From assembly GCA_014802325.1 (NCBI GenBank), contig JAAVCK010000014.1, forward strand, positions 33,940 to 97,939: DNA of 64,000 nt. The letters run 5' to 3'. This stretch comes from Bacteroides sp. GTDB taxonomy: Bacteria > Bacteroidota > Bacteroidia > Bacteroidales > Muribaculaceae. The position numbers and the translations under genes are program-made. Position 1 is the first letter of the stretch. The number at the start of each line of letters is the position of its first letter. The notes beneath the pieces were generated by a model. That model worked only from the letters and a program-made list of their open reading frames with translations, was not told the DNA's origin and did no database searches. Below are positions 731 through 63,732 of the stretch, piece after piece.

Positions 731-877
731 CGCACACTGGGGTGCGTCAAGATTGGTAAAAATGTAATTTCACCACCCATCGTTGCGCACCATTCTTCGC
801 GTAGCGAAGCGGCAAGCCGATTACACAGCCGGAAGCTCAGTGGGGAGCGTCCAAACCAATCGGTGTATAATATAAGC
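731..877. repeat. Composite intergenic repeat 'D' copy 1
   Basis: gacgcacactggggtgcgtc hairpin, cttcgcgtagcgaag hairpin; ~145 bp direct repeat with 1091-1237. Confidence 0.75.
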
Positions 878-1069
878 CACGGAGTGGCTTGACTACGTTA
901 ACCCCGGGTGCTTGTCACCCGGGGTATTTTCATCAGGAATTACCAACCACGGAGTGGTTGTACAAAATCTGTGGCGGTTGTCCAACCACTCCGTGGTTGA
1001 TTTGCCATCTTATTTTATACTCCGGGTGTCAAGCACCCGGGGTTAACAATGTGGCAGCCACTCCGTGGC
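876..1069. repeat. A-B-C/C'-B'-A' inverted REP-like element without transposase
   Basis: gccacggagtggc (876-888), aaccccgggtgcttgtcacccggggt (900-925), caaccacggagtggttg (944-960), and mirrored copies at 983-999, 1019-1044, 1057-1069. Confidence 0.85.
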
Positions 1070-1090
1070 TTTTGTATTTGCGTAGTATTT

Positions 1091-28376: not shown

Positions 28377-28446
28377 CCCCGCTTGCAATAAAGTGATGCA
28401 AAATTGCGCCCCAGCCGGCAGCTCGTTTTTACCAACGCTAAAAAAC

Positions 28447-28641
28447 GCCACGGAGTGGCAGTCATTCGGTTAACCCCGGGTACTTGCCACCCGGGGAACA
28501 CACCACCCCCACGTCACAACCGCGGAGCGGTTGAACAATGGTGGCTCGATTGTACAACCACTCCGTGGTTGATTTGGCAATGGTTTTTATACCCCGGGAG
28601 GCAAGTACACGGGGTTAACATTGTGGCAGCCACTCCGTGGC
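28447..28641. repeat. A-B-C/C'-B'-A' inverted REP-like element without transposase
   Basis: A 28447-28459, B 28472-28496, C 28517-28533, C' 28555-28571, B' 28591-28616, A' 28629-28641; T run after A'. Confidence 0.85.
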
Positions 28642-28756
28642 TTTTTTTGACTCGCACCCGTAGGCGCTCGGTTTTAGCCCAGCCGTACGCACCCCAGTGT
28701 GCTATACTTTCCCCACAGACTTCACCTGCGCTCCAGCTGACTTCTGTGGGTATAGA

Positions 28757-37244: not shown

Positions 37245-37392
37245 ATCATTCTATATAGTGGTTAATAATCTTGTGCTGCTATAGTTCACCCGCTCCGCGC
37301 CTTGCTGACGCGCTCACCTCCCGGGACCTCGGCTGGTGCACGACTGCGGCCTCGGCCGGTGCGCGACCGGGGTGCTTATGATCGGAGTATTC

Positions 37393-38042
37393 GCCGCGGA
37401 GCGGCAGACATTTGGTTAACCCCGGGTGCTTGCCACCCGGGGTAACGATACCCCCCGCGAACACAACCGCGGAGCGGTTGAACAATGTATCAGTTCCAGT
37501 CATCTTCATACCAAGTCAATCCGTTGATTCTCGCTATACGTTGCATCTCTTCTATCAGATCAGTGGCCGTATGATGTTCCTCCTGATTTATGATATAGTT
37601 TCTGCATGCATCGAGTGCTTCACACCCGACAGAGACAGCATAATATCCCGCGCCCCAATTAGAAAACAGCGGAAACTGAGGATTGTTTTTTAGCCAGTGG
37701 CTACTCCACTGCTTGATTTCTTTTACCAGAGCGGCCACGGCCACCGTAGGATGTACGTCGACAAGTATATGTATATGGTCGGCCATGCCGTTGATACGAT
37801 GTACCTTACACCCCTTCTCTTTCATGATACCATGAATGTAGGCGTAGAGATCCCTCTTATATTCGGGCGTGATGGACGGTATTCGCCGTTTTGTGCCGAA
37901 TACGATGTGGTGGAGTGATCTGGTTTTGCTCATGGATTTGGTGCTGATGTTGTTCAACCGCTCCGCGGTTGTGGTGTTGGGTCTTGATTGTACCCCGGGT
38001 GTCAAGCACCCGGGGTTAACGTTGTGACAGGCGCTCCGCGCC
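37393..38042. mobile_element. RAYT-centred composite element: A-B-C hairpins, tnpA, C'-B'-A' hairpins
   Basis: A 37393-37405, B 37418-37443, C 37464-37480, tnpA 37490-37933, C' 37955-37971, B' 37992-38017, A' 38030-38042. Confidence 0.8.
37490..37933 (-). CDS. tnpA: IS200-type Y1 transposase / REP-associated tyrosine transposase (RAYT)
   Basis: 'HIHILVDVHPTVAVAALVKEIKQWSSHWLKNN' HUH motif and 'WGAGYYAVSVG...NYIINQEEHH'; start taken at MSKTRSLHHIVFGTKRR (37933). Confidence 0.88.
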   Translation of the reverse strand: MSKTRSLHHIVFGTKRRIPSITPEYKRDLYAYIHGIMKEKGCKVHRINGMADHIHILVDVHPTVAVAALVKEIKQWSSHWLKNNPQFPLFSNWGAGYYAVSVGCEALDACRNYIINQEEHHTATDLIEEMQRIARINGLTWYEDDWN

Positions 38043-38178
38043 TTGCTGACGCGCTCACCGATGGTGTGCCCCGACGGGGAATCACGTTGTGACAGGCACT
38101 CACCGGTGGTGTGCCCCGACGGGGAATCACGTTGTGACAGGCGCTCACCGATGGTGGTGTGCCCGACGGGTAATCACT
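38021..38178. repeat. Tandem repeat of ~45 bp units next to the RAYT element
   Basis: gttgtgacaggc(g/a)ctcaccg(a/g)tggtgtgccccgacggggaatcac repeated three times (starts 38021, 38086, 38131). Confidence 0.85.
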
Positions 38179-39412
38179 TTGTCACTTCGCGGCCGCGGAG
38201 GAAGGTGCGCCGTATGAGGGGAGCGGTGTAGGCGTAGGGCATGAAGGCCAGCGACGGCATGGGGCGGGTGATGAAAAACGACGCCAGTTTGCCCTCGGCT
38301 ATCGACCCCGTCTCGGCCTCTACGCCCATGGCATACGCACCGTTGAGCGTCGCGGCATTGAAAGCCTCCTCGGGCGTGAGTTTCATCTTTATGCAGCCGA
38401 GCGACATCACCATCTTCATGTTGCCCGAGGGCGACGATCCCGGATTGTAGTCGCTCGCCAGCGCAAGCGGCAGACCGGCGTCGATCACCTGACGGGCAGG
38501 GCCGTAGGGCATTCCCAGAAAGAACGATGCCCCCGGGAGCATCGTGGGGATGGTCGACGAGCCGTAGAGAGCCTCGATTTCCTGCGCTCCCATGCGTTCG
38601 AGATGGTCAACCGACAGAGCGCCTTTAGCCACACCTACCTGCACGCCGCCCGAGCGGGCCAGTTCGTTGGCATGGATCTTGGGGCGGAGTCCGTAGCGCG
38701 CGGCGGCATCGAGTATGCGCTCGGTGTCGCGCACGGTGAAGAAACCCTTGTCGCAAAACACGTCGACATACTGCGCCACGCCCTGAGCGGCCACGGCGGG
38801 GAGCATGTCGGTGATGATGTGGTCCACGTATTCATCCTGACGGCCATAGTAGGCGCGGGCCACGGCGTGAGCGCCAAGAAATGTGGCGCGCACCACCAGC
38901 GGCGTCGACTCGGCTATGCGGGCCACTACGCGAAGCATCTTCAGCTCGGTGTCGGTCGACAGGCCGTAACCGCTCTTGATCTCCACCGCGCCCGTGCCGG
39001 CAGCTATTATCTCGTCGACGCGGCTCATGGCCTGACGGTAAAGCTCATCCTCGGGAGTGGCGGCAAGCAGATCGGCCGAGTTGAGTATGCCGCCTCCACG
39101 ATCGGCTATCTCCTCGTAGGAGAGGCCGGCTATCTTGTCGACAAACTCGCCCTCGCGGCTTCCGGCATACACGATGTGGGTGTGGGAGTCGCAAAACGAC
39201 GGAAACAGCCAGCCGCCGCAGGCGTCGATCACCTCCTCGCCCTCGGCCGGAGCGGGCATCTGTGCCATCGGGCCATAGGCGGCGATGAGTTCGCCGTCGG
39301 TGCGCAGCCACGCGCCCTTGATCATACCCACCGAGGCCATCTCCACGCCTTCGAGCCGCCGCTTGGCGGGGCTGGTGACGCCTACTATCGAAGCTATATT
39401 CTTGATTATCAT
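38174..39412 (-). CDS. hutI: Imidazolonepropionase
   Basis: 'WLFPSFCDSHTHIVYAGSREGEF', adjacent to hutH. Confidence 0.95.
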   Translation of the reverse strand: MIIKNIASIVGVTSPAKRRLEGVEMASVGMIKGAWLRTDGELIAAYGPMAQMPAPAEGEEVIDACGGWLFPSFCDSHTHIVYAGSREGEFVDKIAGLSYEEIADRGGGILNSADLLAATPEDELYRQAMSRVDEIIAAGTGAVEIKSGYGLSTDTELKMLRVVARIAESTPLVVRATFLGAHAVARAYYGRQDEYVDHIITDMLPAVAAQGVAQYVDVFCDKGFFTVRDTERILDAAARYGLRPKIHANELARSGGVQVGVAKGALSVDHLERMGAQEIEALYGSSTIPTMLPGASFFLGMPYGPARQVIDAGLPLALASDYNPGSSPSGNMKMVMSLGCIKMKLTPEEAFNAATLNGAYAMGVEAETGSIAEGKLASFFITRPMPSLAFMPYAYTAPLIRRTFLRGREVTK

Positions 39413-46108: not shown

Positions 46109-46556
46109 AAACTCCCGCAATTCCAAGAAAAATCCCCGGAAAAAATAGTAATAATCCCCCCACACCCCCGCCCCCCGGTAAGGCCGCACACTTGGAAGCG
46201 TCCGCCCGCGCAAAAACTCGCACCATCATCCGCCGTCGTCGCGCACCATCCGCCGCCGCGTTAATGAAAATCAGGGCTGGAAGCCCGTCGTTGTACTAAA
46301 CCGCGGGTGAAGCCCGCGGACAAGTGCCCCTGACAACATGAGCTGCGGAGCTGCAATGTTGTTTTCTCCACGAGCTTGCCACCCGGGGCATCAAAACCAA
46401 TGCCAAATCAGCCACGGAGTGGTTGTACAATCGATCCGCTATTGTTCACCCGCCCCCCCCCGCAAAAATGTAACTTCACCATGCCAAGCCGTTAAAAACT
46501 CCTAAGATTGGGTCAGCGGCGCGGGATGGGTCGAAAAACTTTTGTATCTTTGTGGT

Positions 46557-50693: not shown

Positions 50694-50822
50694 CCGGCTA
50701 ATCACCCACAACACCCCGTCCCACCTGTAGGGCGCACACTGGGCTGTGTCCGGCCGAGCAAAAATGTAACTTCATTGCCGCTGTTCCACAGCCGTCGCAC
50801 CCACGGGTGCGCGTCTCAAAAA

Positions 50823-50908
50823 GCCACGGAGTGGCTACCACAACGTTAACCCCGGGTGCTTGTCACCCGGGGTACAAACCCCACCGCGACACAACCGCGG
50901 AGCGGTTG
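50823..50908. repeat. A-B-C half element, direct copy 1
   Basis: gccacggagtggc, aaccccgggtgcttgtcacccggggt, caaccgcggagcggttg. Confidence 0.85.
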
Positions 50909-50956
50909 CACAAAAAAATCATGAATCTATGCACACCTATAGGTGTGTCTCAAAAA

Positions 50957-51042
50957 GCCACGGAGTGGCTACCACAACGTTAACCCCGGGTGCTTGTCAC
51001 CCGGGGTACAAAGTGCACGACGACACAACCGCGGAGCGGTTG
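50957..51042. repeat. A-B-C half element, direct copy 2
   Basis: Same hairpins as copy 1 with the same internal spacing (86 bp). Confidence 0.85.
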
Positions 51043-51049
51043 CACAAAT

Positions 51050-63523: not shown

Positions 63524-63597
63524 GGATTCCTTTTTGATTTATGATTCATGATGCATGATTCATGATTCCTTTTTGATTCATGATTCATGATTTTTGT
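63510..63597 (+). repeat. Heptamer array with 39-bp period at the 3' end of the GH2 gene
   Basis: tgattcatgattaaggattcctttttgatttatgattcatgatgcatgattcatgattcctttttgattcatgattcatgat; contains the TAA stop (63521-63523). Confidence 0.9.
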
Positions 63598-63598
63598 G

Positions 63599-63684
63599 CA
63601 ACCGCTCCGCGGTTGTGTCGCGGTGGGTTTTGTTCCCCGGGTGACAAGCACCCGGGGTTAACGTTGTGGCAGCCACTCCGTGGC
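63599..63684. repeat. C'-B'-A' half element
   Basis: caaccgctccgcggttg (63599-63615), ccccgggtgacaagcacccggggtt (63635-63659), gccactccgtggc (63672-63684) then tttttt. Confidence 0.85.
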
Positions 63685-63732
63685 TTTTTTGAGACACATC
63701 TGTAGGTGTGCATGGGAACGTGGTGGGTGTTT

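Follow-up and report, generated by a model that had tools for sequence, protein, structure and literature searches.

An IS200-like HUH/Y1 transposase in Bacteroidota flanked by mirrored three-hairpin arms that are dispersed as REP-like repeats

A gene for an HUH/Y1 transposase, tnpA, lies between two mirrored arms of three hairpins each in the window, the whole 64,000-nucleotide stretch of a Bacteroides sp. genome that was analysed, and gene-less copies of the same arms are scattered over the host genome, mostly as inverted doublets. We read this arrangement as a probable REPtron-like system whose enzyme is an IS200-like HUH/Y1 protein of TnpA-Y1 subclass 1.2. The anatomy of the arms, their dispersal and doublet geometry, the covariation of their stems, their cognacy with tnpA, the synteny of the gene and the presence or absence of arms at an orthologous site were all observed directly.

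Architecture of the tnpA locus and class of its protein

The preliminary description of this DNA had placed three palindromes in mirror order on each side of the open reading frame at 37490-37933, within flanks of 88 bp, and had taken A, B and C to be the same on both sides. All the parts are present at those places, both flanks are 88 bp as claimed, and mirrored A-B-C hairpins make up a left arm (37393-37480) and a right arm (37955-38043). The identity of the two sides is true of B and C but not of the right A', which shares a CGCGGAGCG core with the left A and differs from it in the outer pairs; these have changed together, so that pairing is kept. The features of the locus are the following:

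37393..37405, + strand: hairpin A of the left arm, GCCGCGGAGCGGC, C-GGA-G triloop type
37415..37418, + strand: GTTA foot directly 5' of B, candidate guide sequence (GTTAA-CC conserved across arms)
37419..37443, + strand: hairpin B of the left arm, ACCCCGGGTGCTTGCCACCCGGGGT, with a 10-bp stem and a CTTGC loop
37464..37480, + strand: hairpin C of the left arm, CAACCGCGGAGCGGTTG, C-GGA-G triloop type in the same orientation as A
37481..37485, + strand: AACAA after C, with an inner A-C conserved across arms, the candidate cleavage dinucleotide
37490..37933, - strand: tnpA, HUH/Y1 transposase of 147 aa with His53, His55 and Tyr113, putatively of TnpA-Y1 subclass 1.2 type
37955..37971, - strand: hairpin C' of the right arm
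37992..38016, - strand: hairpin B' of the right arm
38017..38020, - strand: TAAC, reverse complement of the GTTA foot of B'
38029..38043, - strand: hairpin A' of the right arm, AGGCGCTCCGCGCCT, outer pairs changed and pairing kept

The left-right inverted-repeat score at tnpA is 44.5 versus a 99th percentile of 13.6 over 1500 random window positions, only 0.27% of which score at least 18. Beside the right arm, 38051-38185 holds a tandem array of three to four units, each about 45 bp long (CCCCGACGGGG ... CGTTGTGACAG), which resemble decayed B'-A' arm halves. The whole unit is also bracketed by an exact 28-bp direct repeat (37291-37318 and 38032-38059), whose right copy overlaps A' and which may have been left behind by an older arm or by an insertion.

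At the protein level, TnpA (147 residues) matches Pfam Y1_Tnp, carries the motifs DHIH and YIINQEEHH, and scores 77.6 bits with the NCBI IS200/IS605 model (cut-off 55), which is also matched by 18/18 aligned relatives. The signature of TnpA-Y1 subclass 1.2 is Y---Q--HH (Quentin et al. 2018, PMC6006769), and this motif is found in 77/79 relatives fetched from named genomes. The AlphaFold model of TnpA (mean pLDDT 90.1) has the TnpA-hairpin complexes of IS608 and ISDra2 as its nearest folds, followed by other IS200 structures. Two divergent tnpA copies are present in the host genome, where the full element is single-copy, the paralogue is 43% identical and no near-identical full-length copies were found. 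Judged by motif, length and low copy number, TnpA is classed as an IS200-like TnpA-Y1 of subclass 1.2 type. Genes of this subclass 1.2 type also occur in two records not named as Bacteroidota, Avibacterium paragallinarum NCTC11296 (L190) and a Planctomycetaceae MAG (L137), by horizontal transfer or because the contigs were misbinned.

The RAYT label given to the protein in the preliminary description had to be abandoned. With the NCBI RAYT model TnpA reaches 23.5 bits, far below the cut-off of 80; the class-2 Y motif (YI..NP) is absent from the protein, which has YIINQEEHH instead, and a GT[AG]G foot is not the arm consensus, which reads GTTAA-CC. TnpA is therefore not a RAYT by family. It might still be argued that it is a drifted member of the true RAYTs (TnpAREP, class 2), since dispersed REP-like repeats together with a resident single-copy gene are RAYT-like traits; against this stand the scores of the two models, the Y---Q--HH motif of the relatives, the GTTA foot and the position of 4er8, the E. 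coli RAYT, which ranks below every IS200 structure among the matches listed for the TnpA model, and we consider such an origin extremely improbable. RAYT membership was rejected on the RAYT score, the 18 relatives matching the IS200 model and the fold ranking.

Dispersal and turnover of the arms and synteny of tnpA

The 2.34-Mb host genome contains 24 occurrences of the B pattern and 47 of the C pattern, versus 0 and 6, respectively, for the reversed controls. A covariance model identified 27 strong arms of the tnpA-arm family; of these, two flank tnpA, 16 make up eight inverted doublets and the other nine lack a partner in this arrangement. In the doublets, A-B-C is followed by C'-B'-A' in convergent order, + then -, with arm starts 104-106 bp apart (n=8) around a centre AACA...TGTT of about 21 bp, and at its own locus tnpA sits at exactly that point. 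The eight doublets thus place tnpA at the centre of a REPIN-like unit, and a feature of REPINs and BIMEs, two inverted repeat units separated by a short spacer and dispersed, is present. The window itself holds the following copies:

873..965, + strand: dispersed arm, left half of doublet 1
978..1072, - strand: dispersed arm, right half of doublet 1
28444..28538, + strand: dispersed arm, left half of doublet 2
28550..28644, - strand: dispersed arm, right half of doublet 2
46339..46430, + strand: weaker, divergent arm, possibly of a second orphan family
50820..50913, + strand: dispersed single arm
50954..51047, + strand: dispersed single arm, in tandem with the arm at 50820..50913
63594..63687, - strand: dispersed single arm

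Most single arms (L021, L022, L023, L024) finish at CACAA immediately beside TCATGAATC-type repeats and have A-runs before them, a context that suggests either a preferred site or flanks copied along with the arm.

Two further sets of arms were observed in the host genome (G000). A second, divergent family (L246-L253, L013) keeps the A-B-C plan (for example, GTGCCGGAGGCAC / GATAACCACGGGTGCAAGCCCGTGG / GAGCTGCGGAGCTGC) and is dispersed, its doublets lying about 110 bp apart; arms of this family flank neither of the two tnpA genes detected in the genome. The paralogous tnpA (L028, G000:C21:75700-77300) has mirror arms of its own that are unrelated in sequence to the tnpA arms, and none of its arms is dispersed, the sequence of its A/C hairpin being found nowhere else in the host genome, a point that counts against the REPtron-like reading.

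The gene order hutI-tnpA-upp is shared by the host and its congener G143, and in G202 tnpA adjoins upp at the point where the contig ends. This synteny makes tnpA appear resident, and the gene looks vertically kept rather than hopping. In none of the other 22 congeners examined does hutI adjoin upp, which would be a possible empty site. The arms have turned over: at the junction of porU and TPM, names assigned by resemblance, two arms are present in the host genome and none in G202, which has another insertion there. This comparison demonstrates turnover of the arms and not its mechanism, and neither the hutI-upp congeners nor the porU-TPM site of G202 yielded a precise empty site or a target rule, which also counts against the REPtron-like reading. 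The insertion in G202 (L233:441-1500) includes a RAYT-like gene of 174 aa with NHVH, scoring 56.3 bits with the RAYT model (cut-off 80), and this gene is enclosed by an inverted repeat of 142 bp whose sides are 92% complementary and which is made up of GGACGCGATTAATCGCGTCC palindromes and ATTCGCGGCG repeats.

These observations bear on one alternative, namely that the element is an ordinary IS200-type insertion sequence whose arms are transposon ends and whose doublets are MITE-like derivatives that arose by internal deletion and move with it. TnpA does pass the IS200/IS605 model and has a fold like that of the IS608 TnpA, and a doublet without tnpA resembles the full element minus its gene. 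However, the full element is single-copy with only a distant paralogue, the position of tnpA is shared with congeners, the arms are mirror images and are also found singly, and subclass 1.2 has been set apart from insertion sequences, with low copy number among the features cited (Quentin et al. 2018, PMC6006769). An insertion sequence of this kind is accordingly regarded as unlikely.

Conservation, covariation and coupling with tnpA

The proposal that each arm consists of three hairpins rather than a single REP pair is borne out by the relatives, where the A-B-C plan recurs, and arms were indeed found around orthologous tnpA genes elsewhere. In a model-free test, mirror arms beat every shuffle at 28/31 relatives in the same family (Muribaculaceae) and at 61/75 relatives across Bacteroidota, a set that includes Chryseobacterium, Cyclobacterium, Spirosoma and rumen MAGs. 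Covariance model R1, derived mostly from the host family, suffices to detect arms beside most relatives; model R2 was scored partly on its own training loci, and the independent evidence consists of the shuffle test and R1.

The arms were aligned through the covariance model, since MAFFT alone put divergent stems out of register. In the alignment of 79 arms, every one of the 23 pairs in the three helices shows changes on both sides, and 94.0% of cells are paired versus 35-45% with the partner slid, a result somewhat inflated because the alignment was fitted to structure. What stays fixed is the plan: A and C are hairpins of one kind, each closed by C-GGA-G and pointing the same way; B has GTTAA-CC at its 5' foot and, in its simple form, CTTG in the loop; and A-C lies one base past C. 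In a subgroup of the relatives (L048, L051, L052, L054, L055) B is compound, with an outer CACCATGCAAG/GCTTGGTG stem enclosing another hairpin.

Only some 2.5% of the standard pairs are G-T (summed over the pair table of the 79 arms), as expected for DNA palindromes. This is among the reasons why it seems quite improbable, even more so than an insertion sequence, that the arms are mainly RNA or transcription signals, such as terminators or mRNA stabilisers at gene ends, to which the association with tnpA would be secondary. Several doublets of the window do lie between convergent genes, and orphan arm families occur without any Y1 gene; yet the arms have no Rfam match, their copies are found in both orientations, and their mirror placement at tnpA is far above chance and they evolve with tnpA. 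The identity of the arms as an RNA family was rejected on the absent Rfam match and the few G-T pairs.

That the arms are cognate REP-like units, as had been claimed, agrees with their dispersal in the host genome and their resemblance to the tnpA arms of that same genome. Over ten genomes, 31/49 dispersed arms best match the tnpA-flanking arm of their own genome, and most of the others match a congener because a single B type is common to G000, G143 and G202. The more alike two TnpA proteins are, the more alike are their arms (Mantel rho 0.28, with 0/500 permutations as high, over 92 distinct loci), and arm sequence is shared by 51% of pairs above 60% TnpA identity versus less than 0.5% of pairs below 50%.

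Among 299 genomes of the family, tnpA was detected in 144 with a single query or 153 with a profile, and arms in 155. The preliminary description had named arms equally abundant in close relatives lacking any RAYT as grounds for refutation, and on this point the answer is mixed: at least five arms are present in 73/144 genomes with tnpA versus 23/155 without it (odds ratio 5.9; p 2e-11, a value that is too small because the genomes are related; the top per-genome count stands for at least 14), but orphan arm families are common. In 19/23 of the genomes with at least five arms and without tnpA at 1e-15, some of them incomplete assemblies, no Y1 gene was found, which argues against the REPtron-like reading and implies that arms persist, or are moved, without tnpA. 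A hidden divergent tnpA behind the orphan arms was rejected as a general explanation, with PF01797 and an 18-sequence profile accounting for only a few genomes. The link between arms and tnpA is thus real but loose, and orphan families may outlast gene loss, be moved by something else or belong with a gene that was missed.

Proposed mechanism and comparison with known systems

In the biochemistry of IS608 and RAYTs, an HUH/Y1 dimer binds a single-stranded DNA hairpin and the bases 5' of the hairpin choose the cut (PMC8266576). By analogy, a resident, vertically kept TnpA would recognise its cognate A-B-C arm in single-stranded form, probably on exposed stretches of the lagging-strand template. 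The hairpin likely to serve for recognition and as the guide is B, with the GTTAA foot on its 5' side, while A and C, a like pair of GGA-triloop hairpins bounding it, may serve as alternative or accessory binding sites. Cleavage would take place next to the arms, at the A-C or A-T dinucleotide after C, where the GT of the foot could pair with the AC. The arms, mostly as inverted doublets, would then be non-autonomous copies that TnpA cuts, joins and spreads, presumably by a replicative route, the doublet being the putative REPIN-like mobile unit and tnpA occupying the centre of one such doublet.

Since A and C bracket B in each arm, the enzyme would face six hairpins in a full unit, and to our knowledge no such mode of recognition has been reported for IS200 transposases or RAYTs; within the open-access literature, no earlier description of a three-hairpin subclass 1.2 system was found. 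The broader proposition, that the enzymes of subclass 1.2 form a class of their own that spreads REPs, is widespread in Bacteroidota and uses a composite three-hairpin substrate in which A and C bracket a guide-bearing B, is one to which we would give an even chance. The system would provide a likely substrate and job for an entire subclass of HUH/Y1 enzymes that was reported in 2018 to lack both REPs and IS properties, and it adds a type of REP in which the three-hairpin plan is fixed and the stems evolve fast, in a setting outside Proteobacteria, the gut Bacteroidota, where REP-like repeats have hardly been described. Turnover under strict pairing, together with the cognacy of tnpA and arms, makes the coevolution of enzyme and hairpin directly testable.

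With IS200/IS605 elements such as IS608 and ISDra2, the system has in common the catalytic fold, HUH plus one Tyr, hairpin ends and a guide 5' of the hairpin. IS608-type ends consist of one hairpin each and are not known to form mirror-symmetric arms. Unlike in those elements, the gene is resident here and the gene-less arms are the repeated part. RAYTs, which are IS200-like TnpA proteins, are associated with REP palindromes in other bacteria, and the likeness to the RAYT REPtron and to REPIN-BIME units lies in a resident HUH/Y1 gene whose cognate flanking palindromes are dispersed, often as inverted doublets; the differences are another enzyme subclass, an arm of three hairpins (about 90 bp) versus one REP, and GTTAA-CC versus GT[AG]G. 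TIRtrons (TIRYT) likewise have long inverted repeats flanking a tyrosine transposase and dimers elsewhere, features that are present here, and some of their repeats are self-complementary or 'double palindromic', but their proteins are RAYT-like, their TIR motifs are others (GGGGWSAS) and the available part of that account reports no conserved A-B-C plan (Di Nocera et al. 2013, PMC3733652). For subclass 1.2 itself, the published survey lists 'no' REPs and finds IS200-type terminal structures generally absent (Quentin et al. 2018, PMC6006769); the present system shares with it the Y---Q--HH motif, a length of about 148 aa, an IS200-related core, low copy number and occurrence in Bacteroidetes, and departs from what was reported in having mirrored multi-hairpin arms at most members, dispersed in many genomes.
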